From positions 1 to 64,000 of the forward strand of contig JAAUUT010000014.1 of the NCBI GenBank assembly GCA_012031035.1: a stretch of 64,000 bases of DNA. The letters run 5' to 3'. Position 1 is the first letter of the stretch. Each line of letters begins with the position of its first letter. The translations under genes were made by a program, and so were the position numbers. Origin of the DNA: Candidatus Altimarinota bacterium. GTDB taxonomy: Bacteria > Cyanobacteriota > Cyanobacteriia > Cyanobacteriales > Microcystaceae. Under the pieces are notes generated by a model, which saw nothing but the letters and a program-made list of their open reading frames with translations, was not told the origin of the DNA and did not search any database. Of this stretch, positions 41,113-64,000 are shown in pieces.

Positions 41113-41205
41113 ATGCGCTCTAGTTTACTCAACGGCGATCGCCTGATTGGTCTATTTTTGAATTCGCCAACAGTATCGGGAGAGTGGCTCAACCCCTCTA
41201 ATGAT

Positions 41206-43575
41206 TTAGCGCTGACTGTTTTTGAAAACTTCCATTAAATCGAGGTGTTTTAGTTTTCGATAAATAATTAAACTAGAACCAAAAGCCGTAATTACTACGA
41301 TCGCAAAAGCAAAAAAATAAGTGTGTCGATCGATAATCAAAGGTAGACGAAATATTTCTGAATTATAAGCTAAAGACATTAAAAAAGACAAAATATAACC
41401 ACCAAGAAAACCGATTGGCATAGCTAAAATAACCAATATCAGTTGTTCTCCTAATAAAATCAGAGCAACTTCATTATGACTAAAACCAATAATTCTGAGA
41501 CTAGTAAGTTCTCTTATTCTTTCAGCTAGAGAAATTCTAGCTGAATTATAAATAATACTAAAAGTAATAATACAGGCAAAAATCACTAAGACTTTAGTAA
41601 AGAATTCTAGATTTTGGGCAATAAATTCTTTAAAGCTTTTTAAACTGGTTTGACGATTGGATACTCCACCAATAGTAGGAAGAGTTTTTAAATGGGAGTA
41701 AAGCAAATTAGTAGCGCGATCGTCTACTGATAAATAAGCACCAGAAATGGTTAAATCTTCTTCGAGCATTCGATTAAGAGCGCTAAGATTCATGTACGCA
41801 GAAAGTCCTAACAATTCGTCTACTAAACCCACTACTGGAATTTCACGAATAAAACGTTTTCCTTCCAAAACTTCTACTGTAACTGTTTTTCCTAAATCTA
41901 CTTGTAAAATTTCTGCTAGTTTGACACTAAGCACTAGTCCGTTACTTGGAAGTTGGAGTGAATTAAGATTGCGATCGACCAAACGGCGTAACTCGCCATT
42001 AGCTCGAATGCCGGTTAAATTGAGACGATAACTATTCTGTTGGCTGCGCAAACGGACAGAGATAGTCCGAAAAGGCTCGCTGCGAAGAACTCCAGGTAGA
42101 TCGTTAACTTCGTAAATAGCACGACCTGAAATTGCCTCATTAAAAATAATCGAAACATTTTCCCGTTGAATATTGCTAAATTGAACTTTGGCAATATGGC
42201 TCATCGCATCCCTGATGTAGTTACCCGCTACTAAAATTGCTATGGCTAGAGCAATACCGATAATGGAAAATAAAGCTTGTGAAAATTTGCGTTCCAAATT
42301 ACGGATAATGATGCGACTGGTGGGAGAGAAAAAACGCTCCCAACCTAATTTTTCAAGAATTGTCGAGCGAAATTGGGCTGGTGGTTCGGGACGCATTGCC
42401 GTAGCTGGAGCCAGAGCAACCGCTCGACCGACGGGTTTTAGTCCGCCAATCATAGCGGTAATTAAGCTAAACAAAACTGCGGTGGTGACTAAACTAGATT
42501 CTAGTTGATAGCGGATTAGAGGTAGACGAAAAAATTGGGTATAGGTTAGAGTCATTTGTTGACCCAACCAATAGCCAAATACAGAACCTATAATTACGCC
42601 ACCACCAACGATCGCTAAGATAAATTTTAGATAGTGAAAGCCAAGAGCCAAGTTACTATAACCAAAGGCTTTTAAGACACCTATTTGTTCTCTTTGGGTG
42701 GCTACCAAACGAGAGAGAATAACATTAATTAAAAAAGCGGCAATTCCTAAAAAGATGGAGGGAAGAAAAGTAGCTAAATTTTTTAGATCGTCAATTTTTT
42801 GAGTAAAAATGCGATGAGAAACTTGGTCTTTTCTACTATAAGCTCCCAGTCCGCCATAATTTGCCAAAAGGCGATCGAGACGAGAGATAACTTCTAGTTC
42901 TCTAGTATTTGGAATCAGAGAAATAGTAACATCGTTAAAAGCACCATCGAGATCGAAAGCTTTTGCCAATGCTTCTCTACCCATCCAAATAACACCAAAT
43001 CGTTTGTTGTCTGGATAGACATCGCTGCCACCGCGCACTTCATAAACATACTCTGGAGAAAGAACGATCCCGACAATTCGTAGTTTTTGCCATTTGCCGT
43101 TAATAACTGCGCCGATTTCTCGATCGAGTCCGAGTTGATTTGCCTCGGCAAAAGCTTCGCTAATTAAGATTTCATTTCCCCTCGTCGGGTCGAGATAGCG
43201 TCCCTGACGGAGATGTAAACGATTGAGCAATTGCGAGCGCCCTTCGGGAAGGGAAATTAATCTACCCGTTGCTGGTTCGTTTAATTGGGGTACGTCCAGA
43301 GTAACTTCTTTGACAATGCGAGTTTCTACCCTAGCTACGCCTTCGATCGCTTCAATTTGTGCGGTCAAACTCGTGGGGGCGCGTTTGAGAGGGGCAAAAA
43401 TCTGGGCAAAATGATAGTTATTGTAATAAATCGATTGAGTGAGTTTGACCGAGCTATAGGCACTCATCGCCATTAAAAAACTAGCGATCCCACAGACTAG
43501 CACTAACCCAAGTGCTAAGATTTGACCCCTTTGTTGCCAAAGTTCTCTGAGAATTTTGCGATCGAGGATATCCAT
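41206..43575 (-). CDS. ABC exporter permease, FtsX/DevC-MacB type
   Basis: The 789-residue protein has two FtsX modules. Each has periplasmic loops and three to four membrane spans. The N-terminal part (LALGLVLVCGIASFLMAMSAYSSVK), the repeated FLPSIFLGIAAFLINVILSRLVA, and the C-terminal ELTSLRIIGFSHNEVALILLGE match lipoprotein- or macrolide-type export permeases. It is encoded directly after its ATPase (20-bp gap), downstream of the NRPS genes and type II thioesterase, so it probably exports the cluster's product. No membrane-fusion partner was seen in this operon. Confidence 0.88.
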   Translation of the reverse strand: MDILDRKILRELWQQRGQILALGLVLVCGIASFLMAMSAYSSVKLTQSIYYNNYHFAQIFAPLKRAPTSLTAQIEAIEGVARVETRIVKEVTLDVPQLNEPATGRLISLPEGRSQLLNRLHLRQGRYLDPTRGNEILISEAFAEANQLGLDREIGAVINGKWQKLRIVGIVLSPEYVYEVRGGSDVYPDNKRFGVIWMGREALAKAFDLDGAFNDVTISLIPNTRELEVISRLDRLLANYGGLGAYSRKDQVSHRIFTQKIDDLKNLATFLPSIFLGIAAFLINVILSRLVATQREQIGVLKAFGYSNLALGFHYLKFILAIVGGGVIIGSVFGYWLGQQMTLTYTQFFRLPLIRYQLESSLVTTAVLFSLITAMIGGLKPVGRAVALAPATAMRPEPPAQFRSTILEKLGWERFFSPTSRIIIRNLERKFSQALFSIIGIALAIAILVAGNYIRDAMSHIAKVQFSNIQRENVSIIFNEAISGRAIYEVNDLPGVLRSEPFRTISVRLRSQQNSYRLNLTGIRANGELRRLVDRNLNSLQLPSNGLVLSVKLAEILQVDLGKTVTVEVLEGKRFIREIPVVGLVDELLGLSAYMNLSALNRMLEEDLTISGAYLSVDDRATNLLYSHLKTLPTIGGVSNRQTSLKSFKEFIAQNLEFFTKVLVIFACIITFSIIYNSARISLAERIRELTSLRIIGFSHNEVALILLGEQLILVILAMPIGFLGGYILSFLMSLAYNSEIFRLPLIIDRHTYFFAFAIVVITAFGSSLIIYRKLKHLDLMEVFKNSQR

Positions 43576-43594
43576 CTTAATTGCAAAACTAAAT

Positions 43595-44317
43595 TTACCA
43601 TTCCAAGTCTTGCGGATTTACCTTAGTTTGATTGTCGTGTATCTTAATAATTTCACCGCTACGCATGGTAATAACTCGGTCTGCCATAGCTGAAATGCCA
43701 GTGTTATGAGTAATTATCACTATCGTAGTTTTCAACTCGCGGTTGAGACGAGCGAGTACGTCTAAGACGAGCTTTCCAGTTTGATAATCTAGCGCGCCTG
43801 TCGGTTCGTCACAAAGAAGTATCTCAGGGCGTTTGGCAATAGCGCGAGCGATCGCCACTCTCTGTTGTTCGCCTCCAGATAATTGGGAAGGAAAATGGTT
43901 GAGTCGATGGTCTAAATTGACCATTCCTAAAGCTTCTCTAGGATGCATAGGACGAACGGCTATTTCGGTGACGAGGGCAACATTTTCCAAGACAGTCAGA
44001 CTGGGAATGAGATTGTAAAATTGGAAGACAAAGCCGATCGATTCTCGGCGGAAAAGAGTTAGGGTTCGATCGCTAGCTTTTGCCAAATCGCGATCGCCGA
44101 ACAAGACTTGACCTTGAGAAGGTAAATCTAAACCTCCTAATAAATTCAGCAAAGTAGATTTTCCACTTCCTGAAGGTCCTAACACTACTAAAAATTCTCC
44201 TCGGTATATGTCGAGGTCGAGGGATTTAAGTACCTCGACATTCACTTCTCCCATTCGATAGGTTTTTTGAAGATTGCGTACTCGAAGGATCGTTTGGGTA
44301 GTGGATTTAGTAAACAT
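43595..44317 (-). CDS. ABC transporter ATPase, LolD/MacB type
   Basis: Walker A is GPSGSGKST, the signature is LSGGEQQR, and Walker B is [11 protein letters not shown], in a 240-residue protein. Start ATG 44317 is preferred over the TTG at 44323. It overlaps the end of the thioesterase gene by 11 bp, so translation is likely coupled. It powers the FtsX-type permease that follows at 41206-43575. Secure as an ATPase; the substrate is inferred from the operon to be the polyketide-peptide product. Confidence 0.95.
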
Positions 44318-45092
44318 GACCAACTCGATCTAAAGATAAATAAATAGACAAAATTTGACTAATTCTCTCTAACAATAAGTCTTTGGCAGTATTGATAAAA
44401 AAGTGATTGCCAGGAAACATTTGCAAAGAAAATTCACCTTTTGTTTGTTTTCGCCATGCTTCTAAATCTTCTAATTTTGTTTCTGGATCTGCCAATCCAC
44501 CAAAAACGGCGATCGGACAAGTAAGAGGTTCTGAATTCAGGTAATTATAGGTTTCGTCGATTTTTAAATCTGCTCTCACCATTGGCAATAAAAGTTGTAG
44601 CATCTCTGCACTTTCCAAGACAGCTTTGGGAGTACCATCTAAGCGACGCAGTTCGGCAATTAAATTTGCTTCGGATAGAGCGTGCATTGGGGAAAGATCG
44701 TGAATTGGCGGTGCTTGGCGACCAGATACTAACAAGTGAACGGGAACTTTTCCGTATTCTCGATCCAGATAACGAGTAAGTTCAAATCCGATCAAAGCAC
44801 CTAAGCTGTGACCGAAAAAAGCAAATGGTAAATCTAATAAAGGTGCGATCGCAGTCATTAATTCTTCGACTAGAGATTGAGTATTTTCAAAGGGTTTTTC
44901 TAATAAGCGAGAACCCCTTCCTGGTAACTCGATCGGGCAAACTTGAATATCGTTTGGTAAGCTTTCTTGCCAATCGCGAAAAACTAACGCACTACCACCT
45001 GCGTAGGAAAAACAAAACAGACGCAATTTAGCTTGAGGATTGACCTGAGAATAGGCAATCCAAGGCGTGTTTAAAGGAGAAGTTTTTAGCAT
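44307..45092 (-). CDS. Type II thioesterase
   Basis: The 261-residue alpha/beta hydrolase opens with [18 protein letters not shown]. The catalytic serine is in [13 protein letters not shown], and the histidine is in FPGNHFFI near the end. This GrsT-like family frees carrier domains that are blocked by the wrong acyl group. It sits just downstream of the last NRPS gene (20-bp gap) and overlaps the ABC ATPase start. It is not the product-releasing enzyme, since the NRPS has its own reductase domain. Confidence 0.95.
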
Positions 45093-45112
45093 TATCGATC
45101 GATTAGAAACAA

Positions 45113-48100
45113 TTAAGACTTGATAACTGGAGATTTTAGTAAGTTGCTACTAACTAAATAATTAAGACAGTGATGAATTAATCGTTCGTCAACTGGAGGA
45201 CAAACAATAGAACTCCCAGTTAATGCTTGTAGGGTATTTTGACAGTGGAATCTAGGCGAACCAGAAATAGAAATGCCTAATTCTTTCATTTGTGCTTGAG
45301 GTGGAAAAACAGGTAATAGAGGAGACAGAGCATTATCTATCGAATTTAAGGTCACTTCTAATAGTTTTTCGCGCCAGCGATCGTGATCGGTCATCTCTAC
45401 TCGATAACCAAAGGAATTAATCCAAGCGATCGCATTATGCCATTGAGTCGGATTGGGATTGACGATGTGAAAAATTTGCTGCGGAAGTTCTTTTCGCATC
45501 GATAGATAAACAATAGCATTACTGATGTAATCTACTGGCGATAATTCTAGGGTTGTTTCCCATTTAGGAGCTAAACCTAATTGAGCAAAACCTTGCAGCA
45601 TTCGATAAATTAATTCTTCAGATTTGCACGCGCCAGTTTGGCTATCTCCTGCAATCATTCCAGGGCGATAAATTCTAACGGGAAGCCCCTTTAATGCAGC
45701 GTTCGTAACTAGCTTTTCTGCTACCCATTTACTTTGAGCGTAACCACCATAGATGAACTGACCGTGTTCTATGCTATCTAATTCTCGGATTTGGTTATTT
45801 CCAGCATAAGCATCGCTAGAAAAAACAGCGACGCTAGAAATAAAATGCACTGGCTTAACTTTAAATTGACTTGCCAAACGTAATATCTCTTGAGTACCTA
45901 GTACATTGGCAGCTTTTAAATCTGAGTATTGATAGGTAAAGTTAATGAAAGCACCATTGTGGTAGATCGCATCGATTTGTTCGCATAGCGATCGCCAGTC
46001 GGATTCAGAAATTCCCAACCTCAGTTGCGATAAATCTCCGACAATCGGAATAATTCTTCCTTGAAAATTGTCGTCCCAAAGTTGATAAGTTTCCAAATTT
46101 TGTTGCAGTCTTTTAGCACCCTGTTCTCGATTATTTGCTCTTACCAGACAGTAAAGATCGGCTTGGGTTTGTTTGAGTAAGTCGCGTAGTAAAAATGCAC
46201 CGAGAAACCCAGTCGCACCCGTTATTAAGATGTGTTTGGGTTCGATGTTAAAGTCTACAGAAGATGGTTCGATCGCCAGATCGATAGCTAAATTGGCTTC
46301 AGCAGCTAAAGTTTTAATGGGAATAGTTCTAGTAGAAACGAGCGTACCGCGATCGGAAGTAGTGGCGATTAACTCAGCCAATCGAGCAATTGTTGGTTTC
46401 TCAAATAAATCCTGCAAAGATACATTAACTTGAAAAGCTGACGAGAGAGCAACAACTAGCTGAGTGGCTAAAAGAGAATTTCCCCCTAATTGGAAAAAGT
46501 CAGCTTCAACACTTACTCGTTCGAGTTCGAGAATTTTTAACCAAATCGAAGCAATTTTTTCCTCAATAGGATTGCGTGGTGGAATAAAGGGGCGATCGCT
46601 TGACGATTTCGCTCGTTCTAAATTTAATAAAGCGTTTCTGTCTACCTTACCATTAGCTGAGAGAGGTAAAGTTTCTAACCAATCGAAATTAGAAGGAATT
46701 GCATATTCTGGCAGTTTTTTACTCAAATAGCCGCGCAGTTGTTCGACAGATACTTTTGTCTCTGAGGTAGGAACTAAATAGGCTATTAAATGTTTGTCTC
46801 GATCTCGTTCTCCCACAACAGTAACTACTGCTGTTTTTATTTGTGGATGTTCGATTAAGGCAGCTTCAATTTCGCCTGGTTCGATGCGATAGCCCCGCAA
46901 TTTGATTTGAAAATCCACTCGACCTAAAAACTCGATATTGCCATCGGGAAGATAGCGACCTCGATCGCCAGTACGATAAAGGCGTTCGCCCGTACGGGGA
47001 TGATGGATAAAACTGGCATTTGTTTTATTGGGATTGTTCCAGTAACCCTTTGCCAAACCAATTCCAGAACAGTAAAGTTCTCCTGCAACCCAAGTCGGAC
47101 AATCTTCTAATTTTTCATTAAAAACGTAATATTTGGTATTGGCGATCGGGCGACCGTAAGGAATACTTTTCCAATCGGGATTGATGGTTTCAACAGGATA
47201 CCAAATATTCCAGACTGTTGTTTCGGTTGGCCCGCCAATACTGAGTAGGGAAATTTGCGGGATTAGTTTTCTGAGTCGATCGGGTAAGCTAAGAGGGATA
47301 AAATCACCCCCTAAGATAGCCAAACGTAAATTAAAGTTGCGTTTGTCTGGTACGGAATCGGCATAATCTAAGAGCATCTCCATCATCGCAGGGACGGAAT
47401 TCCATAACGTTACCTTATGTTCGATCGTTAATTCTAGCCAGTGAGCGGGATCGCGTACTTTAGCTGCACTTGGTATAACTAAAGTTCCTCCCGCAGCAAG
47501 CATCCCAAAAATATCGTATACCGATAAATCGTGATTGAGAGCGGTAAGGGCGAGAAGGCGATCGCCACTCGTTACTTGCCACGATTGATTGGTTGCCAAA
47601 ATCGTATTGAGAAGACTGCGATGGGAAATCGCCACGCCTTTAGGCATTCCCGTCGAACCAGAAGTATAAATAACGTATGCTAGATTTTCTGGTTGTTGCA
47701 GCGTTTCTAAGGGTTGGCTGTTTTCTCTTGCTAGGGTATCGGTATCCAAACAAATAACTTGAAGGCGTTCTGGTAATGCTAGAGACGATCGTAACTTGGA
47801 TTGAGTTAAAACTATTTGGACTCGGCTATCTTCTAGCAAATAGTCGATCCGTTCTAAAGGAAGTTTGGGATCGATGGGGACATAGGCGGCTCCCGATTGT
47901 AAAATACCGAGAACTGCTACTACTTGTTCCCAACCCTTTTCCATCACCACAGCGACAAGTCGATCGGGTTTTGCTCCTAAATGCCGCAGCCGATGACCGA
48001 CTCGATTGGAAAGCTGGTATAGTTCTTGATAGGTTAACGTGCGATCGCTGCTAATAATGGCTGGTTGTTGGGGAAGAAGCCGTGCTTGTTTGGCAAAAAG

Positions 48101-49669
48101 AGTATGTGCTAGTTCATCAGGAAGCGATGTTTCTGTTTGATTGATTTTGGCTCGTTGTTCTAACTGAGGTTGGGGAATTAGTTCGAGTCGATCGCAACTC
48201 CAAATAGATTCTTCATCGGCTAAACGTTTTAAAAGATTGCTATAAGCAGCAAACATCTCCTTTAATAGTCCTGAAGGAAATAGTTCTTCTACTGCATCCC
48301 AGTGGAGGACTAAAGCTCCTTCTGCTTCTCCAAACTGACTGTCAAGCCAAACTTGAGGGGTTTCTGTCAGAACTTCGATTATTTCTCCCCAATCTTTTTG
48401 CCAAGAAGGTAATCGTTCGTTCCGATTTTTATCGACATTTTGAGGCGTGCTGGTAAAGACGACAGGCATAGTTACCCCAGAATTCACCCCTCTTGCCCGT
48501 GGAATGTCTCTGAGAACGCTAACGCCACTAACATAAGTATGTTCTAAATCTCTCCAGAGTTGCTCTTGATGTCGTTTGGCACGTTCTGTAAAAGATATTT
48601 GGTTAGAGTTATCGATTTCTAAGAGAGTGAATGAAGCAAATTCTCCTATAAGTCGATCGATCTGAGGATGTAAGGGTAAACGATTGAATCTAGGTACGTT
48701 TAAAGTGAAGTGAAAACTATTGCTCCAAAGCGTTAATATTTCGGCATAGGCTGCTAGTAAAATACCAGGAGGTGTCAAACCGACTCTTGCTGCTTTATTT
48801 TTTAGTTTTTGCCAAGTTTCTGCTCCTAGTCGAGCTTCACGTCTGACGAAATGGGGATGTTTGAGAGAAGCAGGATTTTTTGCAAGAGGCAAATTAGGAG
48901 CGTTAGGAATACTAGAAAGACGCTCTTGCCAATATTTGCGAGATTTTTGTGCTATTTCTGTTTTTTGTAGTTCAATTTCACTTAAAACGTAATCTCGAAA
49001 CGAAACTTCTAAGGAAGGAAGTTGTGTAGTTGGCTCTTGATAGAGTTGCATCAACTCCCCAAACAAAATTTGATAACTCCAACCATCGACAAACAAGCCA
49101 TCAATATTGATGAAGAGGCGAAGACGTTGGTTCTCTAGTTGACAGGCTAAAAGTTCAAAAAGAGGCCAGCGATCGCTCTTGAAGACTTGATGGGATAGGC
49201 GATCGCGAATTTTCTGTAATTGTGATTCTCTTTCTGGTAATGTTTTATCTCTTAGGTCGATAATTTCGATTTCATAAGGAGGAACTGTTTCTAAAATTTG
49301 CTGCTGTCCATCGGGATTTACTATCGATCGCAGCATATCGTGTCGATCGACTAGCTGTTGCCAAGCTCGATTAAATTTCGGCAATTCTAGGGTAGTACTT
49401 TCTAGTTCTATGTAAGTATGGATGCCAACATTACCCAATTCAAAAAAGCTATTTCTTCCCAGCCAATAAGCTTGTTGCATTTCTGTTAGTGGGAATGGCT
49501 GGTAACGATTGGCTGGATCGGGTTTAATTAGAGGAAGTTGGGTAGAATTAGTAGATTTTGTTGCAGTCGCTTGTTTAGTTGGAATAGTTTCTCCGCGCAA
49601 ACGTCTGGCTAGTAAGGCTTGTTTGGCGGTTGAGAGTTGAGTTTGTTTGATATTTTTGTTTAATTCCAT
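45113..49669 (-). CDS. NRPS terminal module: Cy-A-PCP-thioester reductase
   Basis: The 1518-residue protein has an N-terminal docking-like helix (KQALLARRLRG), then a heterocyclisation domain whose Cy motif is DGLFVDGWS (DxxxxDxxS). The adenylation domain has [16 protein letters not shown] and YRTGDRGR. Its pocket reads D-L-Y-N-I-G-I-V-W-K, close to the cysteine code but with differences at four positions. PCP: FFQLGGNSLLATQL. The C-terminal reductase has ITGATGFLGAFLL and YAQSKW (NADPH fold and YxxxK). It should add the last Cys-type unit and release the chain by reduction to an aldehyde or alcohol. It starts 12 bp after the preceding NRPS gene. Confidence 0.92.
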   Translation of the reverse strand: MELNKNIKQTQLSTAKQALLARRLRGETIPTKQATATKSTNSTQLPLIKPDPANRYQPFPLTEMQQAYWLGRNSFFELGNVGIHTYIELESTTLELPKFNRAWQQLVDRHDMLRSIVNPDGQQQILETVPPYEIEIIDLRDKTLPERESQLQKIRDRLSHQVFKSDRWPLFELLACQLENQRLRLFINIDGLFVDGWSYQILFGELMQLYQEPTTQLPSLEVSFRDYVLSEIELQKTEIAQKSRKYWQERLSSIPNAPNLPLAKNPASLKHPHFVRREARLGAETWQKLKNKAARVGLTPPGILLAAYAEILTLWSNSFHFTLNVPRFNRLPLHPQIDRLIGEFASFTLLEIDNSNQISFTERAKRHQEQLWRDLEHTYVSGVSVLRDIPRARGVNSGVTMPVVFTSTPQNVDKNRNERLPSWQKDWGEIIEVLTETPQVWLDSQFGEAEGALVLHWDAVEELFPSGLLKEMFAAYSNLLKRLADEESIWSCDRLELIPQPQLEQRAKINQTETSLPDELAHTLFAKQARLLPQQPAIISSDRTLTYQELYQLSNRVGHRLRHLGAKPDRLVAVVMEKGWEQVVAVLGILQSGAAYVPIDPKLPLERIDYLLEDSRVQIVLTQSKLRSSLALPERLQVICLDTDTLARENSQPLETLQQPENLAYVIYTSGSTGMPKGVAISHRSLLNTILATNQSWQVTSGDRLLALTALNHDLSVYDIFGMLAAGGTLVIPSAAKVRDPAHWLELTIEHKVTLWNSVPAMMEMLLDYADSVPDKRNFNLRLAILGGDFIPLSLPDRLRKLIPQISLLSIGGPTETTVWNIWYPVETINPDWKSIPYGRPIANTKYYVFNEKLEDCPTWVAGELYCSGIGLAKGYWNNPNKTNASFIHHPRTGERLYRTGDRGRYLPDGNIEFLGRVDFQIKLRGYRIEPGEIEAALIEHPQIKTAVVTVVGERDRDKHLIAYLVPTSETKVSVEQLRGYLSKKLPEYAIPSNFDWLETLPLSANGKVDRNALLNLERAKSSSDRPFIPPRNPIEEKIASIWLKILELERVSVEADFFQLGGNSLLATQLVVALSSAFQVNVSLQDLFEKPTIARLAELIATTSDRGTLVSTRTIPIKTLAAEANLAIDLAIEPSSVDFNIEPKHILITGATGFLGAFLLRDLLKQTQADLYCLVRANNREQGAKRLQQNLETYQLWDDNFQGRIIPIVGDLSQLRLGISESDWRSLCEQIDAIYHNGAFINFTYQYSDLKAANVLGTQEILRLASQFKVKPVHFISSVAVFSSDAYAGNNQIRELDSIEHGQFIYGGYAQSKWVAEKLVTNAALKGLPVRIYRPGMIAGDSQTGACKSEELIYRMLQGFAQLGLAPKWETTLELSPVDYISNAIVYLSMRKELPQQIFHIVNPNPTQWHNAIAWINSFGYRVEMTDHDRWREKLLEVTLNSIDNALSPLLPVFPPQAQMKELGISISGSPRFHCQNTLQALTGSSIVCPPVDERLIHHCLNYLVSSNLLKSPVIKS

Positions 49670-49681
49670 CGTTCGTTAAAA

Positions 49682-52600
49682 TCAGTTCGATTGAGAAAGT
49701 TGTTCGGCTTCTGCTTCATCTAAAGCTGCGATTTCTGCAAAAATAATTTCTTCGATCGCTTCTGCAAGTTTGGTGATGGTGGTTGCTTGCAGGAGTTTCT
49801 CGATCGGTAATTCGATTTGGAAAGTATTTTTGATTTTAGTGGTTAGCTGAATTGCTAATAGGGAATCGCCACCTAACTCGAAAAAATTATCTTCGATACT
49901 GATTCGATCGCGATCGAGTAATTCTTGCCACAGTCGGACTAAGATTTGTTCTGTTTCAGTGTGAGGGGGAACGAATATCTTTTCTGACAAAATTTGCTCT
50001 GGTGCGGGTAAAGTTTTGCGATCGATTTTCCATTAGCAGTTAAAGGCAAGCTGTTTAGGAAAATAATTTGATGGGGAAGCATATATTCGGGCAATCTTTG
50101 CGCCAAAAATTTTCTTAAGTCGCGATCGCTAGTAGATTCAGTTGCGGCTACTACATAAGCCACTAAGTATTTGCTTTCCTGTCGTCCAACAGCTATCACC
50201 ACCGCCTGACGCACTCTTGGATCGCTAGCTAAAGTCGATTCGATTTCTCCTAACTCAACCCGAAAACCTCGTATCTTAATTTGATAATCTTCTCTTCCTA
50301 AAAATTCGATCGCTCCATTGGGTAAATATCTGCCTAAATCTCCCGTGCGATAGAGTCTTTCTCCTGTATCGGGATGGATGATGAAACTGGCATTAGTTTT
50401 CTCAGGGTTTTGCCAATACCCTTTAGCTAATCCCACACCTGCGATATAAAGTTGTCCTGTTACCCAAACTGGACGAGATTGTAAGTTCTCATCTAGTACG
50501 TACCAACGTTGATTGGTCATGGGATAGCCATAGGGAATGCTTTGCCAGTTGGCTTCGATGTGTTGAATCGGATAAAAAATCGACCAAATTGATGCTTCGG
50601 TCGCACCACCCAAGCTAATAGTTTCTGCTTCTGGGAAAAACGATTTAATTTGTTTTGGTAAGGATAGAGGAATCCAATCGCCACTAAGAAGAACTAAACG
50701 CAGACTTCCTAATTCTTTTTCAACGCTAGGAGAGTTTAGGTAATCTATCCACAATTGCATCAAAGCGGGAACAGAATTCCAAATGGTAACTTGCTGTTGT
50801 CGAATTAATTCAGTCCAATGGGAAGGCTCTTTAGTCTTATTTGCTTCAGGAATAACGATCGTCGCACCAGCCGCCAGCGTCCCGAAAATATCGTAGACGG
50901 AGAGGTCGAAATTGAGAGAGGATAGAGCTAATAAGCGATCGCCAATGCCAACTCGAAAGCGTCGATTCATGTCGAGGATGGTATTAACTGCGCCGCGATG
51001 GTCGATTATTACTCCTTTGGGCGTTCCTGTCGAACCCGAAGTATAGATGACATAGGCAATGTCTTCTGGTGTTTGTATTGGATTTAAAAGGCGATCGAAA
51101 CCGCGTACCTCTTCACTCAGTCGATCGCTATCCAGACAGATAGTGGTTAGTTCCGTCGGGAATGTTACTTTTTCTAATACTTGAGATTGAGTCAGAATTA
51201 ATTCAACTTGACTTTGTTCTAGTAATTGTTGCAGTCTGACATTCGGTAGTTGGGGATCGAGGGGTACATAAGCAGCACCAGCAGTTAAGATGGCTAAAGC
51301 AGCGACTACCTGTTCCCATCCTTTCTCCATAACGATCGCAATTAATCGATTGGGAGATGCGCCTCGTTGCTGTAGTAGATTGGCAAGATGAGCAACGCGA
51401 TCGCCCAGTTGAGCGTACGTAAGTTGCCGATCGGGTGCAATAATAGCTATTTGCTGAGAGTTTTGTCGTACTTGTTTCCAGAAAAGCGTGTGTAATAAAT
51501 CCTTAGAAATTGTGGCATCGGTACTGTTGAAGTCAGCTTGTCGATCGAGCATGATTGATGGCGAACTTTGTTGCCAAATTTCTTCTTCTTCTGCCAATCG
51601 ATCGATAAATTGACAATATGCCTCAAACATATCATCTAAGACTCCTTCCGGAAAAATTTCTTCGAGAGCATCCCAGTGAAAGAGTAATTTTCCACCCCCT
51701 TCAAAAATTTGATGATCGAGCCAAATTTGTGGGGTTTGAGTTAATAAATAGTCAACAGTTCCCAAACCATCTGCATATTCTTGGTCTTGATTGGTATCGA
51801 CGGCAATCGTGCTGGTAAAAACAACAGGCATATTCGCTGTCGTTCCTTCTTGTTTCTGCATCTCGCGCAATACCTGTACGCCGCTCACTTCTCGGTGTTG
51901 TAGATCTTCCCACAGTCGCGCTTGAATGCGTTTTGCCCTGACAACAAAACTATCGACACCAGAGTTATCCACTGCGAGTAAGGTTAAGGAGGTAAAGTCA
52001 CCTACCAACTCATTAACCTGGGGATGAATGGGCAAACGGTTAAATAAAGTTAAATTAATCGTAAAACTGGGGTTTTTACTCCAAGCAGTAATAATTTCAG
52101 CGTAAGCTGCTAATAAAATTCCAGAAGGCGTTAATCCTAATTTGGCAGCACGATTTTTGAGTTTTTGCCAGGTAGCTGGTTCTAAGGTAGAACTACGACG
52201 CTTAAATTGGGGACGAGTTATCGAGCGAGGATTTTTTGCCAGGGGTAGATCTGGTGCTGGCGGTAAGCTAGAGAGGCGATCGCGCCAGTAGTTGAGAGAT
52301 TTTTGATAGGTGGGAGATTCTCGGAAACGATGTAGGGCTAAGGTATAGTCTCGAAATGATAGTTCTAGAGGGGGTAGTTCGAGTTCAAGATTTTGATAGA
52401 AAGCTGATAATTCTTGAGTTAGTATTTCTCCACTCCAAGCATCGGCGACAATTAAGTCGAGGCTGAAATAAATGCGAAAATGTTTTTCTCCCAATCTGAC
52501 AGCAGAAATTTCAAACAAGGGGTAGCGATCGGCAGAAAGAATTTGATGGGAAAGGCGATCGCGCATCGCTGCTAATTCTTTGTTAACGGTTTGTCGATCT

Positions 52601-54701: not shown

Positions 54702-54795
54702 ATTTATAAAAGGAAGTAGAGGAGGGGGAATAGGGAGTAGGGAGTAAAATCTATCTGTTATCTCTTGTCTCTTGGCTATTCCCTATTTTGGAAAA

Positions 54796-57700
54796 TTATC
54801 GAATATTTTGTAGAATTTTTTCTGCTGCTTCTTCAGTCAAGTTTTCTACTTCATGGTCGATATCTTCGACCAAAATATCTTCAACAGCTAATGATAGTTC
54901 AGCAATGGTAGGACTAGTAGTCAGATTTCTCAAAAGAATTTTAATCTGAAAAATTTCTTGTAACTTAGTAATGATTTGAATTGCTGCTAATGAATTTCCA
55001 CCAATGGCAAAAAAATTATCATTTACACTGAGGTTTTTAACTGATAAAACTTGTTGCCAAACATCGGCTATAATTCGTTCGATTTCAGTACGAGGAGCAA
55101 TAGATTTTAGGGTAGATTCTGACGTAAAATCTCGCTCTTTTTGAGTTAAATTAGCGAGTGCCTGACGATCGATTTTGCCATTAACAGTTAGTGGCATTTC
55201 CTTTAACTCAATCCATTGATGGGGAATCATATAATCGGGCAATCTTTGAGCTAAGAAATTTTTAAATTCTTCTAAATTAAATGAATCTGACTTTAAGACT
55301 AAATAGGCAACTAATTGACGATCGCGTTTTCCCGCAGTCATCACAACTGTCTGACGTACTTTTGTATGAGTTCCTAAAACCGATTCAATTTCACCCAATT
55401 CGATACGATAACCTTGAACTTTAACTTGCGAATCTTCTCTGCCTAAAAACTCGATCCCCCCATCGGGTAAATATCTGCCTAAATCTCCCGTGCGATAGAG
55501 CCTTTCTCCGGTATCGGGATGAATAATAAAACTCGCTTCACTCTTGTGGCGATCGCGCCAATAACCTTGGGCTAAGCCAATTCCGCCTATATATAATTGC
55601 CCAGTTACCCAGACTGGACGGGGTTGTAATTTCTCGTCCAAGACATACCAGCGTTGGTTGCTGAGGGGATAGCCATAAGGAATAGTTTTCGCATTCTTAT
55701 CTGTGGTTTGAATTGGATAGTAAATCGACCAAATCGAGGCTTCGGTCGCCCCACCCAAACTAATTATCTCAATCTTGGGTGCAATAGTTTGAATTAGGGA
55801 TGGTAAAGTCGGGGGAATCCAATCTCCGCTTAAGAGTGCCAATCTCAAATGTTGTTCTGGAAATGAGTGACCAGAAGTAAGATAACCACACAAAAGTTGC
55901 ATCAAAGCGGGGACGGAATTCCAAAGAGTAACTCGATGTTGTTGGATTAACTCAGCCCAATGAGCGGGGTCTTTAGCTTGGTCGGCTTCGGGAATGACGA
56001 TAGTCCCACCAGCAGCTAAAGTGCCAAAGATGTCGTAAACAGAGAGGTCAAAACTCAGCGAAGAGAGAGCTAAGATTCGGTCTTGCTGGGTAAGATTAAA
56101 ACGACGGTTAATGTCGAGGATAGTATTGACAGCGCCGCGATGGTCGATGGCGACTCCTTTGGGCGTTCCGGTCGAGCCTGATGTGTAGATGACGTAGGCT
56201 AGATCTTCTGGTTGTTGGAGCGGGGTAAAATTATCCAGCCACTCGAAAAGTTGGTTGTGATTGTCAGTATAGTCGAGATTGCGATCGACTGCGATCGCCG
56301 TCAAATTTCCTAAAGCTAGATTTTCGATTAAATGAGATTGGGTGAGGACGATCTCGACTTGACTTCGATCGAGAAGATGTTCGATTCTGGTTTTGGGTAG
56401 TTGGGGATCGATGGGTACGTAAGCAGCACCAGCAGTTAAGATGGCTAAAGTAGCGACTACCTGTTCCCATCCTTTTCCATCATCACAGCAATTAATCGAT
56501 TAGGAGATGCACCTCGTTGCTGTAGTAGGTCGGCAAGACGAGAAACGCGATCGCCCAGTTGAGCGTAAGTAAGTTGCCAAGCGGGTGCAATGACGGCTAT
56601 TTGTTGGGGGTTTTGTCGTACTTGTTTCCAGAAAAGCGCGTGTAGTAAATCTTTAGGAATGGTGACATCGGTAGCATTAATGGCGATTCTTTGGGCTAAC
56701 TGAATGGCTGGCATTAGTGGCGGTGTTTTTTCCTGCCATGCTTCATCGTCGTCGGCTAATCGTTCCAAATGATGACAGTGCGCCTGAAACATTTGGTCTA
56801 GCATTCCTTCTGGAAAAACTCGGTCTACACTGTCCCAATTAAAGACTAATGCCCCTTTTTTTTCTGAGACTTGATAGTCGAGTAGGACTTGAGGAGTTTG
56901 GCTGATGCCGTAAATTTCTTCTAAGGGAAACTCGCAGGAAGTATGACTATCCCCCAAAGGATCGTTTGCCCCGTTATTAACTAAATTACTAGTAAAGACA
57001 ATTGGCATAGCTGCCTCTGCAACTAATCCTTTTTGACGGCTTAATTCTCGTAAAATTTCGACCCCACTGACATGACTGTGTTCTAAACTCTCCCAAAGTC
57101 GGCGTTGCAAGGCTTTAGCCCGTTCTAGGAAAGTACTTTCCGAGTTATCGATCCCCAATAAAATAGTTTTAGTAAAATCACCTAAAATGTCATTGATTTG
57201 AGGATGAATTTGCAAGCGATCGAATACTGTTAGAACTAAGCTAAACTGACGTTTTTTACTCCAAAATACTAGTATTTCACTAAAAGCAGCACAAACTAAA
57301 CCAGAAGGAGTTAAACCAACTTTAGCAGCTTTAGATTTCAATTTTTGCCAAGTTTGTCTGTCTAAACAAGCTTGTCTGCGAACAAAATGGGGTTTACCAA
57401 CAGTAGCAAGATTGGTAACTAGAGGTAATTCTGGTGCTGGGGGTAAGGTCGATAGTCGCTCGAACCAGTAATCTTTACTGCGTTTGTACAGGTCTGATGT
57501 CCTCAACTGTAATTCTTTGAGTAAATAGTCTCGAAAAGAGATTTCGAGGGGAACGAGTTCGCTATCGGGATGGTTGTAAAGATGAAACCATTCCTTAAGA
57601 AACAATTGAGAACTCAAAGCATCTAAAATTAAATTATCAAAACCAAGATGGATGCGAGTTTTATTTGCATCTAATAAAGAGGCACGCAAATCGATTAAAG

Positions 57701-58262
57701 GACAACGATCGAGAGGTAAAACTTGCTGAGATAGTCGCGATCGCAGTGCAATTAAAGTCTCTTCTACTGTGGCGGGGTTTTGACCCCGTAAATCGCTAAC
57801 AGGAATTTCATAGTCAGGTAGAAAGGGCTGGATTTGTTGTTGTCCTGTAGGCAAAATTTTAGTTCGCAGTAGATCGTGTCTTTCGATTAAACGATTGAAT
57901 GCTTTTGTCAGCCGTTCGAGATCGACATTTACTCCTTCCATTTCGACGTAATAATAAGAAGAGACATTACCCAGATCGAATCCACTATTACGTCCCAACC
58001 AATAAGCTTGCTGTAGATCGTTGAGAGGAAAAGGTTGATAGCGATCGCTCGGATTGGGAATAATTTTGGGTAGTTTGTTTTTCAAGCTATCTCGATCGCG
58101 TTGACGTACTAGTTCGAGAATGGCTGTTTTATGTTCGACTAATGCAGCGTGTAATTCAGAATTCCAAGACTCTTTGGGCGCGCGATAATAGAGGCGATCA
58201 TTTTCCGTCCAAAGTTTGACTCCAGCACGAGTTAATCGATCGAAAACTTCAGTTGAATTCAT
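54796..58262 (-). CDS. NRPS: TubC docking-Cy-A-PCP, one apparent frameshift
   Basis: Start ATG 58262 has GGGAGGAAGGAAG in front and overlaps the TGA of the previous gene (ATGA). The N-terminus (STEVFDRLTRAGVKLWTEND, RAPKESWNSELH) is a TubC-type docking domain. The Cy motif is DNLILDALS. The A domain holds [16 protein letters not shown] and [10 protein letters not shown], with pocket D-L-Y-N-L-S-L-I-W-K (cysteine). PCP: FFAIGGNSLAAIQ. One A is missing in the run at 56473-56476, which splits the gene after VMMEK; the frame resumes with [12 protein letters not shown]. The A domain shares a 209-bp identical block with the preceding gene. Confidence 0.9.
55376..55584. repeat. 209-bp block identical to 58794-59002 in neighbouring A domain
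   Basis: The block encodes A-domain core motifs from just before the A10-side region through [14 protein letters not shown] to the [11 protein letters not shown] segment. It matches 58794-59002 base for base (offset 3418). Similarity of roughly 90-95 per cent then continues to about 56170 and 59590. Such identity between modules suggests recent duplication or gene conversion. Confidence 0.85.
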
Positions 58263-61200
58263 AAACTTCCTTCCTCCCAATCTTGGTCGTTTGAGTTTAG
58301 TTGTGACATTTCTCGTTCGATCGCTGCTCCCAAGGCAGCAATATTAGATGATTGAGCTAATTCACTCAATCTGGGACGTATTTGAAATCTTTCTTCTATT
58401 GCATTGGCAATACGAACGATATCGACCGAATTTGCTCCTAATTCGAGGAGATTAATGTGGACATCTAATCGTTCGACCGCTAAAACTTGACTTACGAGTC
58501 GTGCTACTTCCGAGGCAATTGGACTAGTTGGTTCGGGTAATTCTGGTGTTGGTTCGATGGCGATTTTGGGTTCGGGAAGTAATTTGCGGTCTATTTTCCC
58601 GTTAGAACTTAAAGGTAGGCGATCGAGAAAAACAAAGTGAGAGGGAACCATATATTTTGGGAGTTTTTCTGATAGCCAAGCGCGTATTTTTTCGCTAGCA
58701 ATTTCTGTTTGAGCCACAATATAGGCAATCAATCGTTTATTCTGTTCGCCAGCAGTATTAATTACTACTTGATTTATGCCTTGGTATTGACTCAAAACCG
58801 ATTCAATTTCACCCAATTCGATACGATAACCTTGAACTTTAACTTGCGAATCTTCTCTGCCTAAAAACTCGATCCCCCCATCGGGTAAATATCTGCCTAA
58901 ATCTCCCGTGCGATAGAGCCTTTCTCCGGTATCGGGATGAATAATAAAACTCGCTTCACTCTTGTGGCGATCGCGCCAATAACCTTGGGCTAAGCCAATT
59001 CCACCAATATATAATTGCCCAGTTACCCAGACTGGACGGGGTTGTAATTTCTCGTCAAGGACATACCAGCGTTGGTTGCTGAGGGGATAGCCATAAGGGA
59101 TGGTTTTCGCCTTAATATCGGTGGTTTGAATTGGATAGTAAATCGACCAAATTGAGGCTTCTGTAGCACCACCCAAACTAATTATTTCAATCTTGGGTGC
59201 AATAGTTTGAATCAGGGATGGTAAAGTTGGGGGAATCCAATCTCCGCTTAAGAGTGCCAGTCTCAAAGTCGGTTCTAAAAATGAGTGACCAGAAGCTAAA
59301 TAACCACACAAAAGTTGCATCAAAGCGGGAACGGAATTCCAAATAGTCACTCGATGTCGTTGGATTAACTCAGCCCAATGAACGGGGTCTTTAGCTAACT
59401 CGGCAGAAGGAATAACGATAGCACCACCAGCAGCTAAAGTACCAAAGATGTCGTAGACCGAGAGGTCAAAACTCAGCGAAGAGAGAGCTAAGATGCGGTC
59501 TTGGTGAGTAACATGAAAACGACGGTTAATGTCGAGGATGGTATTGACAGCACTGCGATGGTCGATGGCGACTCCTTTGGGCGTTCCTGTTGAACCCGAA
59601 GTATAAATGACGTAGGCTAGATCTGTTGATTTGCGAACTGCTACGCTTGAAACTTTAGGGGAGCTAGGAGAGGTATTTACAAGCTGGGAATCGACGACAA
59701 TAGTAGTTAGATTCTCGGCTAATTTAGATTATCTTTCAGCCAGGATTGAGTCAGAATTAAGTTGACTTCTCCTTTTCTAACAGATATTTTTGTCGATCGC
59801 GGGGTAATTCGGGGTCGATCGGTAAATAAGCCGCACCAGTCAATAAAATCGCCAGAGTTGCAACGACTTGTTCCCAACCTTTTTCCATCATCACGGCAAT
59901 TAATCGATCGCTAGATGCACCCAAATCTTGTAATTGCTTGCTTAGTTCGTAGGCGCGATCGCATAATTCTTGATAAGTTAAGCTGCGATCGCTGGTAATT
60001 ATGGCAAGTTGTTGGGGTTGTTTGGCGACTTGTTCGAGAAATAGGCTATCTAGTAATTCTTCTGTAATTGGTAGATCGGTACTATTGACTGCATTGAATT
60101 TCTGAAGCTGATTTTTTGGTATTAGTTGAGATGAGCGATCGAGTTGCCATATTTTCTCGGTTGCCAAACTCTCTAGCAAATGACAATAAGCGGCGAACAT
60201 ATCGTCAAGAAGTCCAGTCGGAAATAATTCTTCTACTGCATCCCAGTTAAAAATTAACGATCCTGCTTCTTCGTAAACTTGATGGTCGAGAAATACTTGG
60301 GGTGTTTGGGAAATCCCCCAGACAATTTCTCCCAACCATGTCAAGGGTGAATCTCGATCGCTATCTTTGATTTGTGGATTGCCCAACAGACTGGTAAAAA
60401 CGACAGGAAATGACGCACCCGTACCGATGTTTCTCTGTTTTGCCAGTTCTCGCAGCAACCCAATTCCACTAACTTCGCTGTAGTTAAGGTCTTCCCATAG
60501 TTGCAATTGAACTTGTTTGGCGCGGGTATTAAAATTATCTGTTTTTGAGTAATCGATCGCCAGTAAATTGAGAGAAGTAAAATCGCCGACAAGTTGATTA
60601 ACTTGAGGATGGATGGGGAAACGATTAAAAGTCGTTAGCGTAATAGTAAAACGAGGATTTTTGCTCCAAAGGGCGATTATTTCTGCAAATGCAGCTAATA
60701 ATCCTCCAGAAAGGGTTAAACCTGTATCGAGAAATTTTTGTTTGAGTGGTTGCCAAAAATCTGGTGTTAATTTATGAGTACGACGGACAAAATGCGGTTG
60801 TTTGACAGTCGCTATACTTTTAGCTAGAGGTAATTCTGGTGCATTTGGTAAGTCGGCTAATCGTTTTTGCCAATACGTCCAAGCCCGTTGGTAGCGAGAC
60901 GATTTTTCGAGGGAATTGAGGGATAGAACATAGTCTCGAAAAGAAAGTTCTAAAGGTTGAATTTCTGAGTGAGGATTGCGATCGAAACGATGCCAATCTC
61001 TGAAAAGCGAACCCAAACTAGCAGCATCGGCAATAATATTTTCAATGCTAAAACAAAGGCGATAATTTTGGTCTTGTAAGCGAATGGCGCAAAGATCGAA
61101 CAGGGGATAGCTATCTAATTGTCTGACTTGATAGGCGAGACGAGAACGGATCGCTTCTAATTGAGTATCGACTCGTTCGGAATCTAATCCGCGCAGATCG

Positions 61201-64000
61201 ATAATTTCAATCTGGAATGGGGGAACTTCAGCTAATATTTTTTGTTCGCCATTGGGTAAAATGATGCAGCGCAACATTTCATGTTGAAGAATAACTCGAT
61301 TCCAGGCGCGTTCGAGTCTGTCGATCGCCAAATTGCTGGCAAACTCTAAGTAAACATGTGTCGAAACATTTCCCAATTCAAAAATGTTAGTTCTTCCCAT
61401 CCAATAGGCTTGTTGAATTTCGTTGAGAGGAAAGGGTAGATAGCGACTTTGTGGATCGGGGGAAATTGTCGGTAAAACTAAATCTTTTTCAGCATTAGCT
61501 ACTTCTTGGAGAATTTCTGTAGCAAGTTGGGCGATCGTCACTCCTTGCAGTAATAAAGTCATTTTTACTTCTACCGCCAAACAAGTTTCGAGATTATTTT
61601 TAATTCGATCGCCATAATCGAATCCAACCCCAGTCGATTTAAAGGGCGATCGGCAGGGATTTTTTGGTCGTTTGCACCGATAATTTTGGCAATAATTTGA
61701 CATAGATAAAATTCTAGGAATGACTGTTTTTCAGTCCCTGGTAATTCTGCTAAAACATTTCTATTTAAGTTAATTTCTGTAGGGCTTTGTGTTTGAATGT
61801 TGCTACTGGCTCGATCGAACTGTTGTGGCGAGGGAAGGTCTCGATCGAGCCAATAACGTTCTCCCTGAAAGGGATAATTAGGTAAAGCCAAACGTTGTCT
61901 TGCATAATCGCGATCGAAACCAGACCAATCTATCTCTACCCCTCGCAAATAGAGTTGTTTTAAACTTTCGAGTAACATCGACCAATTTTCGGTTTCTGGA
62001 TGCAATGAAGATAACCACAAGGAGTTAGAATTATTGTCCAGACAACTTTTGCCCATTTTGGTTAGGGTGGGTTTTGCCCCAATTTCCAGAAAGATCTCGA
62101 TTCCGTTTTCAGCCATAGCGCGAATGCTGTCGTAAAAACAAACGCGATCGCGCAGATGTTTTCGCCAGTAACTAGCATCGGCAATAAAATGATGGGGAAT
62201 AATTTGGCCGTTTAAATTGGAATATAGAGGGATTTGGGCGGGTTTATAGTCAATTTCTCTGGCTATTGTTTCAAATTCCTCTAAAATCGGTTCTAATAGC
62301 GACGAATGAAAGGCATGGGATACGGGTAAGACTTTCGTACCGATTCCTTGAGATTCTAATTGAGTAACGACTTGTTTGACGGTGGTACTCAACCCAGAAA
62401 TTACCGCAGCTTGTGGAGTGTTAACCGCAGCAAGATCGACTTGGCGATCGCTTTTTTCCAACCAAGGACGAATCTTTGCTTCTGGGGCAAAAACAGCTAC
62501 CATCATGCCGTCGCGAGGTAAGTTTTGAATCAGTTGCGATCGCTTGGCGATCAGTTTTAAGCCATCTTCTAAGCTAAATACGCCAGCCAAACAAGCTGCG
62601 ACATATTCGCCTACGCTATGTCCCATCACTGCATCGGGAACAATCCCCCAAGATTGCCAGAGTTGGGCGAGAGAGTATTCCAGGGCAAATAAGGCAGGTT
62701 GGGTGTAAATAGTTTCGTCTAGGAAATTGGTGTTGTTTGAGAATAATAATTCGAGTAGGGGTTTATCGAGATAGGATTCGAGGATTTCCGCGCAGCGATC
62801 GAGTGTATTCTTAAAAGTAGGCTGAGTTTGATAGAGTTGGTAGCCCATCCCCGCATACTGCGAACCTTGCCCTGTGAATAAAAAGGCGATTTTTGGTTTT
62901 TGTTGCGGAGAAACTTGAGATTTTGGAGAATTTATTAGCTGTTGGCGCAAAGATAGAGATGTATCGGCAACAATAGCAAGGCGATGGTCAAAATGCGCTC
63001 TTCCTAAATTAGCAGAAAAGCAAACATCCCCTAGATCGATTTCTGGATATGATGCTAAATATCGTTCTAATTTTTGGGCTAGTTCGGTTAAAGCATTCTG
63101 GCTTTTAGCAGATAAGGTTAATAGATGATGAGGTCTTTCTAATTTTGGGGTTTCGATCTTGTCTGTGTCTGTTACGGCTTCTTCTAAAATTAGGTGGGCG
63201 TTACTACCATTCAAACCAAAGGAACTAACACCAGCAATTCTCGATCGATTGCGATCCTGCCACGGTGTAGCTGTTGTTGGTACGACAAAAGGATAGCGCG
63301 CCCAATCGATATGTGGATTGAGTTTCCGTAAATGTAATGTGGGTGGAATTTCTTTATGTTGTAGTGCCAAAACAACTTTGATTAAACTGGCAATACCAGC
63401 AGCAGCTTGCAGATGACCGATATTCGATTTGACCGAACCAATCGAGACAGGTGCATCTGGGTTTCTTTCTCCCATAACTGCGCCTAAAGCTTGTACTTCA
63501 ATGGGGTCGCCCAAAACCGTTCCCGTTCCGTGTGTCTCTACATAACTGACTAGATCGGGTGTCACTCCTGCATTGGCTAAAGCTTGACGAATTAATTTTT
63601 GTTGGGCTATGCCGTTGGGGACGGTTATGCCACTACTAGCACCATCTTGGTCGATCGCAGAACCCCGAATCAATGCCAAAATGCGATCGCCCGAAGCGAC
63701 TGCATCCTTGAGTCGTTTGAGGACGACAAGACCCCCGCCTTCCCCGCGACTAAAACCGTTGGCGGCTGCATCAAAAGGTTTACAACGACCGTCAGGGGCG
63801 ATCGCGCCTGTTTGCGACAGAGAAATTAAAATATCGGGAGAGAGTAATAAATCGATTCCTCCTGCCAACGCCATAGAACATTCTCCAAGACGCAAACTCT
63901 GACAGGCAAGATGAACGGAGGTCAAAGAAGAAGAACAGGCGGTATCTACGGCTAGAGAAGGCCCTTGTAAGCCGAGAAAATAGGAGATCCGTCCTGCGGT
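58259..64000 (-). CDS. Hybrid PKS-NRPS: KS (partial)-AT-ACP-Cy-A-PCP, three apparent frameshifts
   Basis: The gene's start lies beyond 64000. The ketosynthase keeps all three catalytic parts: DTACSSSL (Cys codon 63935-63937), the histidine in ETHGTGT and that in SNIGHLQAA. The AT has GHSVGEY and HAFHSS, a malonyl-CoA pattern. No ketoreductase, dehydratase or methyltransferase precedes the ACP ([12 protein letters not shown]). A Cy domain follows with an altered motif, ENIIADAAS. The A-domain pocket is D-L-Y-N-L-S-L-I-W-K, then [12 protein letters not shown]. Each frameshift is a missing A (T on the plus strand) at 61597-61601, 59773-59776 and 59723-59725. The next gene starts in an ATGA overlap at its stop. 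Confidence 0.9.
58794..59002. repeat. Partner copy of the 209-bp identical A-domain block
   Basis: Perfect match to 55376-55584; see that entry. The two lie in adjacent NRPS modules of the same operon in the same orientation, so recombination between them would delete about 3.4 kb, that is, one complete module. Confidence 0.85.

Follow-up and report, generated by a model that had tools for sequence, protein, structure and literature searches.

A putative lipid-polythiazoline metallophore assembly line with five consecutive heterocyclisation domains and a predicted zinc-type control site in a cyanobacterial genome

A hybrid polyketide synthase/nonribosomal peptide synthetase (PKS/NRPS) assembly line was analysed in a 64,000-nucleotide stretch, called the window below, from a Microcystaceae genome (Candidatus Altimarinota bacterium, assembly GCA_012031035.1). 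The window corresponds to positions 1–64000 of contig JAAUUT010000014.1 (C117), which continues to 69384. The line lies on the minus strand at 41206–64000 and contains five heterocyclisation (Cy) domains in a row. Its product is likely a lipid-polythiazoline metallophore, and the genome context makes control of the cluster by zinc likely. The combined reading, a Zur-controlled lipid-polythiazoline metallophore that works in a yersiniabactin-like way, starts with a fatty-acyl-AMP ligase (FAAL) like cyanochelin B and ends reductively, is reasonably probable. The narrower proposal is tentative: a dedicated Zur-controlled zincophore with a lipopolyketide tail, five consecutive thiazolines, a reduced end and yersiniabactin-like uptake, whose line would have lengthened as Cy modules were duplicated and swapped between FAAL-started metallophore lines. 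The preliminary description of the window had proposed linked thiazolines with reductive release. Up to five rings is still the best chemical reading. The generic sulphur-rich product was redirected to a probable metal scavenger because of the FAAL, a second PKS module, yersiniabactin-like uptake genes and a Zur-type site, all of which lie outside the window.

The domain order, the motifs, the uptake genes, and the site with its recurrence beside zinc-type genes are read directly from the DNA. From 64000 down to 41206 on the minus strand, the order was KS-AT-ACP, Cy1-A1-PCP1, TubC docking-Cy2-A2-PCP2, Cy3-PCP3, Cy4-A4-PCP4, Cy5-A5-PCP5-reductase, type II thioesterase, ABC ATPase, and FtsX/MacB permease. 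The Cy domains were located by Pfam and motif at 60150–61508 (Cy1), 56742–58097 (Cy2, DNLILDALS, preceded by the TubC_N docking domain), 53244–54782 (Cy3, DLLIADAWS), and 48185–49639 (Cy5, DGLFVDGWS), and by motif and tree at 51574–52926 (Cy4, DLIVADAWS). All five were Pfam Condensation matches with a Cy motif, and their E-values (6.9e-33 to 2.7e-41) mean that the matches are not due to chance. A motif scan found the HHxxxDG of ordinary condensation (C) domains in none of the five, which agrees with the earlier description of five Cy domains and no ordinary C domain. Pairwise identity among them was 45–54%. The best solved matches of Cy3 were the Cy domains of EpoB, Irp2, and the bacillamide protein BmdB.

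Four adenylation (A) domains were confirmed by Pfam. A1 (58763–59978, frame break at about 59728–59763) and A2 (55342–56475, frame break at about 56460–56499) were placed by Pfam and motif; A4 (50197–51420) and A5 (46823–48034) were placed by motif. The uniform cysteine-type pocket claimed for them was not found: with the nine pocket positions placed by motif on GrsA numbering, A1, A2, and A4 read DLYNLSLIW, while A5 read DLYNIGIVW. The former pocket is presumably that of cysteine. The same string occurs in PMC12283262, in passages that do not name cysteine. DLYNIGIIW or DLYNIGIVW was the pocket of 15 of the 96 readable A domains in other loci, in all 15 cases behind a Cy-type motif, which suggests that A5 is of a Cy-linked kind. 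The DNA of A1 and A2 was 93% identical over 833 bases (55376–56206 and 58794–59624), which suggests a recent exchange or an assembly effect.

The five carrier domains were located by Pfam and motif at 58319–58510 (PCP1, LGANSV), 54892–55071 (PCP2, IGGNSL), 52933–53121 (PCP3, LGGNSL), 49754–49945 (PCP4, LGGDSL, in a frame different from that of A4), and 46367–46561 (PCP5, LGGNSL). Between Cy3 and PCP3 Pfam gave no AMP-binding match, and the local order was Cy-PCP-Cy-A-PCP. PCP3, having no A domain, must therefore be loaded by another one. At the end of the line, a terminal thioester reductase (45140–46234) matched NAD_binding_4 at 5.6e-73 and TIGR01746 with 354 bits against a cut-off of 213, and had the TGFLG and YxxSKW motifs. 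It was followed by a type II thioesterase (44307–45092, PF00975, 1.4e-47), an LolD/DevA-type ABC ATPase (43595–44323, PF00005, 1e-34; LolD and DevA model scores below their cut-offs), and an FtsX/MacB-type ABC permease (41206–43575, PF02687 4.7e-24, PF12704 2.4e-15) that is probably an exporter subunit. The ATPase and the permease together form a probable LolD/MacB-type exporter. The reductase, thioesterase and exporter reported earlier were thus all recovered.

The polyketide part continues beyond the window. The KS-AT-ACP module (61574–64000 in the window; AT motifs GHSVG and HAFH) lies in a frame open to 64615, with the end of the ACP in another frame, and has no reductive domains, as described before. 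Its supposed leading position did not hold. Beyond 64000, C117 carries an ACP, KR, DH, polyketide-type methyltransferase (cMT) and AT, that is, an AT-cMT-DH-KR-ACP module, and the contig end falls inside the AT. The KS-AT-ACP module is therefore not the start of the line, and a methyltransferase lies just outside the window in which none had been seen. A second contig, C199 (52947 bases), stops shortly into an AT that follows a KS. Its end overlapped that of C117 over 165 alignment columns with no mismatches and two gaps; the next AT copies in the genome reached 92% and 85%. Profile matches on the plus strand of C199 identified a FAAL (44269–45999), ACP-KS-AT-KR-ACP in two frames (45906–50977), and KS-AT (51045–52871). 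If joined, the whole line would be FAAL, ACP, KS-AT-KR-ACP, KS-AT-cMT-DH-KR-ACP, KS-AT-ACP, five Cy units, and reductase. We infer the join, which this overlap supports, and also a single operon. A salicylate start was rejected, as salicylate synthase gave no match over the 325-bit cut-off in this genome (93% complete draft).

Regular-expression scans found the carrier serine in each of the five PCPs and in the ACP of each PKS module from 1 to 3, active-site motifs in all three KS domains, GHSVG in each of the three covered ATs, and the methyltransferase and reductase motifs. They missed the motif of the loading ACP (a domain that Pfam does find), the second AT motif in module 1, and the final motif of the A1 domain. 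At the C199 end, the AT fragment was too short for its motifs to be judged.

Divergent from the ligase, C199 carries a set of predicted uptake genes: a TonB receptor with AMIN domains (40681–43725, from profile and structure-database sequence matches), a first ABC half-transporter (38884–40653), a second one in two pieces (37007–38080 and 36360–37052), a major facilitator (MFS) protein (35122–36369), and an SDR (34151–35092). The receptor exceeded the siderophore-receptor cut-off (TIGR01783, 231.3 against 223.5). Its best solved match was the pesticin (yersiniabactin) receptor (7.5e-39), which we take to be FyuA, and the pseudopaline receptor CntO came next (8.4e-22). The first ABC protein matched 6p6i_A at 2.3e-104. 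The second ABC piece was closest to 6p6i_A/B, which is grouped in the match listing with the yersiniabactin transporter entry 8vsi.

Between the receptor and the ligase lies the palindromic site AATAATGATAATCGTTATC at C199:44181 (44181–44199), 82–100 bases upstream of the first ATG of the ligase frame (44281). The site scored 17/19 against a classical Fur consensus. Shuffling the intergenic stretch 1000 times (simple shuffles) never gave a score of 17/19, and 200 dinucleotide shuffles of the stretch L107 gave no pattern match. In the 64-kb window no site with at most three mismatches was found. Genome-wide, with at most two mismatches, 13 rows at 11 places were obtained, compared with one row for the reversed pattern; the pattern had been loosened to include the C199 site, whose top score in this search is by construction.

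Seven of the 10 other sites flank zinc-type genes of the Zur-controlled kind or a metal-transport ATPase. The neighbours were a ZnuA-family binding protein and a CobW gene, the opposite flank carrying an ABC ATPase (C181); folE and a CobW gene (C14); a heavy-metal P-type ATPase (C21); all3515-family 'Zur-repressed PEP-CTERM' genes (C35:31374 and C234:12226); hemB (C35:36173); and a short run of genes that leads to hemB (C234:6515). The Zur regulon of Anabaena is described as including znuABC, COG0523, hemB2, folE2, and TonB receptors (PMC6103462), and All3515 is described as ZepA, a Zur-repressed exoprotein for zinc uptake (PMC10957091). Because the site recurs beside the gene kinds of this regulon and the ZepA family, AATAATGATAATCGTTATC is probably a zinc (Zur) box. 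The eleven palindromic sites outline the probable Zur regulon of the strain. On both C35 and C234 the region combines hemB with a metallophosphatase and an all3515/ZepA-family gene.

An iron siderophore would be made by the same enzymes and taken up by the same genes, with the 19-bp site read by Fur and iron as the cargo. The score of the site against the classical Fur consensus and the fit of the receptor to the siderophore model and the pesticin receptor agree with this explanation. The ybt operons are described as Fur-repressed (PMC10136090), and the FAAL-started cyanochelin B is an iron siderophore (PMC12628792). However, at seven of the 10 other places the site lies beside zinc-type genes, and the scan of flanking proteins recognised none of the iron kind (at C177, C203, and C228, a part of the frames was covered). 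Fur control had been the first choice and was dropped once the genome-wide carriers of the site pointed to Zur. An iron siderophore is therefore considered unlikely.

Relatives with the same gene company were sought among 388 genomes of the class. The MFS protein had matches at ≤1e-40 in 74 of them, this genome (G000) included, with up to four candidates scored per genome. In six other genomes an MFS match lay within 40 kb of a Cy domain on one contig, as judged by comparing positions by eye, and all six regions were read. G219:C58 has a FAAL, KS-AT and Cy with a divergent TonB-ABC-ABC-MFS set in the same order as on C199. G103:C8 has a FAAL, PKS and Cy with a methyltransferase, and a TonB-MFS-ABC-ABC set some 18 kb away from the FAAL. 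In G389:C10 the Cy is accompanied by a receptor, two ABC proteins and an MFS protein, and in G037:C18 by a receptor and an MFS protein. The receptor matches beside the Cy and MFS genes of G126:C40 and G232:C12 were weak. G219:C58 and G103:C8 resemble the present line as FAAL-PKS-Cy lines with a TonB receptor, two ABC proteins and an MFS protein. They differ from it in having one Cy each in the stretch read, followed by ordinary C modules. The G103:C8 line (L130–L132), with a methyltransferase beside its Cy, has a domain order like that of the published cyanochelin B line.

The history of the Cy domains was examined in a midpoint-rooted tree of 129 Cy domains, in which the deeper nodes are weak. 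Cy3 and Cy4 were sisters (support 0.97), the only well-supported pair among those of the window, which suggests that one growth step was an internal duplication. Cy1 was nearest to L130 (G103) at a distance of 0.84, with the next at 1.05. Cy5 was nearest to L124 (G219) at 0.77, with L006 (0.79) and L004 (0.81) nearly as close. The nearest relatives of Cy1 and Cy5 thus sit in lines that begin with a FAAL and are accompanied by a TonB receptor, two ABC proteins and an MFS protein, which further supports the join of C117 and C199.

Of the six relative regions, those of G103 (position 103673) and G389 (position 164765) had a single site each that scored at least 15/19. Both sites lie no more than 50 bases from the upstream edge of the receptor frame (edges 103715 and 164732). 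Simple shuffles gave an expectation at 15/19 of 0.08 hits for the G103 region and 0.26 for the G389 region (0.08–0.52 across the six regions).

The length of the Cy run was compared with that of other loci. The longest unbroken run was five in the window, against three in two, two in seven, one in 91, and none in 24 of 124 other loci. Some of these loci overlap; of 137 loci in total, 13 from this genome itself were excluded, and one from it (L108) was retained in the count. The relative search used the best 80 of 329 matches (75 loci). Most loci were shorter than 27 kb and many were about 4 kb, so longer runs could hide beyond the locus ends. In a search with Cy3, 45 of the 388 genomes, G000 included, matched at ≤1e-70, with up to three candidates scored per genome. 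The five genomes that reached three, G000 among them, were rescored; in all, 17 genomes including these five were rescored fully. Among these 17, outside G000, at most three Cy domains were found within 40 kb of each other (G389, with C and KS modules between them).

Several loci of the comparison had related arrangements. The non-cyanobacterial L055 (Holophagales UBA5704) has a Cy-A-PCP-Cy-PCP unit in which the second Cy is without an A domain. L069 (Aneurinibacillus) and L074 (Brevibacillus) have runs of three Cy-type domains; the run in L069 includes methyltransferase domains and fits methylthiazoline chemistry better than the window does. This genome carries a second line with a Cy module and a terminal thioester reductase (L108, G000:C70:1-20000).

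The assembly line appears to work most like that of yersiniabactin (HMWP2/HMWP1, FyuA, YbtPQ, YbtX), although the lack of a salicylate synthase and of thioesterase release sets it apart from yersiniabactin itself. HMWP2 of yersiniabactin has one Cy-PCP unit without its own A domain, a feature found here as Cy3-PCP3. Both systems share Cy and cysteine A domains, a type II thioesterase, a FyuA-like receptor, and an ABC pair, and each includes an MFS protein, YbtX in yersiniabactin and a candidate counterpart here. The FyuA-like receptor and the YbtPQ-like ABC pair were assigned by sequence, and their place beside the line hinges on the contig join. Yersiniabactin differs in its salicylate start (FAAL here), its three Cy domains (five here), its thioesterase (reductase here), and its Fur-controlled promoter (Zur-type here); in addition, three PKS modules precede the rings in the present line. 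Yersiniabactin is described as having three rings from cysteine (PMC10136090). According to the same source, YbtX is required for zinc uptake that depends on yersiniabactin, and Psn (FyuA) and YbtPQ are said to be unnecessary for zinc in Yersinia.

Cyanochelin B of Leptolyngbya is described as an amphiphilic metal chelator and iron siderophore of a cyanobacterium, and shares with the present line a FAAL start, a carrier protein, a PKS part with a cMT, and then a cysteine Cy module (PMC12628792). Its iron binding is thought in that source to be partly via acyl hydroxyls and a thiazoline. It differs in having one methylated thiazoline (Cy-MT), followed by a peptide with two beta-hydroxyaspartates (PMC12628792). 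The present line, in contrast, has a run of five Cy domains whose modules are free of methyltransferases, no C modules, and a reductase end. No ordinary C module or peptide part followed the Cy run in the Pfam scan; aspartate hydroxylase genes were not searched for.

Leptochelins are cyanobacterial PKS/NRPS metallophores with Cys modules. The lusichelins are also products of a cyanobacterial PKS/NRPS with Cys modules, and the lus cluster has a TonB receptor, ABC and MFS genes; it differs in a salicylate start and in four Cys modules intercalated by PKS modules (PMC12210259). Fatuamide A, another cyanobacterial PKS/NRPS metallophore, differs in its salicylate start and single Cys module (PMC11877528). 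Coelibactin of Streptomyces, set beside the line by description only, shares Zur-controlled biosynthesis (PMC6103462) and is called the product of a putative zincophore NRPS (PMC3430247), but is actinobacterial. Tandem Cy domains are themselves a published rule for finding metallophore clusters (PMC12971057). No published description of this domain order was found in the literature searched, beyond whose reach most subscription papers lie.

A cytotoxic or defensive polythiazoline of the tantazole, mirabazole or thiangazole kind, with the uptake genes as unrelated neighbours, would share with the line a chain of several thiazoline or thiazole rings, a cyanobacterial setting, and a lipid-PKS start. 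The structural comparison with these polythiazolines, made in the preliminary description, proved weak. The thiamyxin line is described as having a cMT in its methylthiazoline modules, an oxidation domain in its thiazole module, and a thioesterase at its end (PMC10100342), none of which occurs in the Cy modules here. Pfam found no methyltransferase in any of these modules, in agreement with the earlier description; the sole one seen in the line belongs to PKS module 2. The thiangazole/thiamyxin comparison therefore fails, and 2-methylcysteine rings are unsupported. The FAAL-Cy lines of G219:C58 and G103:C8, which have the same kinds of receptor, ABC and MFS genes close by, and the Zur-type site before the ligase also argue against a cytotoxic or defensive product, which is quite improbable.

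For the Zur-controlled metallophore, we infer the chemistry, the metal, binding by Zur and the direction of transport as follows. With zinc present, Zur would block the FAAL promoter through the palindromic site, and zinc shortage would switch on production of what is most likely a zinc metallophore. The FAAL would load an acyl chain on the ACP, and the chain would be extended by PKS module 1 (KS-AT-KR-ACP) and then by module 2 (KS-AT-cMT-DH-KR-ACP), after which module 3 (KS-AT-ACP) would leave a beta-keto group. Each of the five Cy domains would then append a residue and close it into a ring; as judged by the pockets, three or more of these residues would be cysteine. PCP3 would be loaded by another A domain, as in HMWP2. 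The thioester reductase would release an aldehyde or alcohol. Export of this product would fall to the LolD/MacB-type ABC system, and return of the metal complex to the divergent TonB receptor, ABC pair and MFS protein.

A number of observations weigh against this scheme. In the chemistry, no salicylate synthase exceeded the cut-off, so the customary phenolate group is missing, and it is unclear which atoms would bind the metal. The substrate of A5 is uncertain, and the Cy1 motif (ENIIADAAS) has an E in place of the first D. In transport, P-glycoproteins outscored 6p6i for the first ABC protein, and the two best models of the MFS protein, RhtX/FptX (197 bits) and AmpG (210 bits), were both below cut-off. 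In regulation, the site is closer to the ligase than to the receptor, directly before which just a 14/19 site occurs. At three of the 10 other sites (C177, C203, C228) no zinc genes were recognisable in the frames scanned, which were not every flanking frame. The P-type ATPase on C21 is of the exporter kind. The ZnuA-family protein fell below the zinc-model cut-offs (AztC 224.6 of 350, ZnuA 111.7 of 268) and also scored with manganese models, again below cut-offs, with the zinc model AztC best. Four of the six relative regions had no site of at least 15/19, and the G103 and G389 sites may belong to either Zur or Fur. L124 and L130 entered the tree because of their MFS genes, which biases the sample towards such lines. 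Finally, the broken frames leave a small chance of a dead cluster.

About nine frame breaks interrupt the assembly line. Five fall within Pfam domains (the module 1 KR, the module 2 DH, the module 3 ACP, A1, and A2) and the other four between domains. Within the window the breaks, which the preliminary description does not mention, are at ACP/Cy1, A1, A2, Cy3/PCP3, and A4/PCP4, with more further upstream. A or KS domains are also split between frames on nine other contigs (C11, C49, C110, C116, C146, C163, C165, C173, and C216). Because of these breaks elsewhere, and because the C117/C199 overlap differs by two gaps and no mismatch, the breaks are most likely indel errors of the draft assembly. 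Homopolymer runs as their cause were not clearly seen at the junctions. A decayed cluster, in which the breaks would be real mutations and no product would be made, accounts for their number and position but is very unlikely, given that the overlap shows indel errors to exist in the assembly, that A and KS domains are split elsewhere in the genome, and that most of the catalytic motifs looked for are present.

Zinc-starved cyanobacteria are described as using Zur-controlled importers and the exoprotein ZepA (PMC10957091, PMC6103462). In the titles and abstract starts searched, with most subscription papers beyond reach, no Zur-controlled NRPS/PKS metallophore of a cyanobacterium was found. If the proposed function is correct, the cluster would provide a testable zinc-scavenging molecule together with a concrete gene set, and an unusually long unbroken Cy run.

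An Rfam search of the stretches L107 and L001 gave no match. Near the cluster, at 32742–38326 of the window, a gene for a CHAT-TPR protein and a TPS-domain gene of the two-partner secretion type were found, which are probably unrelated to the assembly line.

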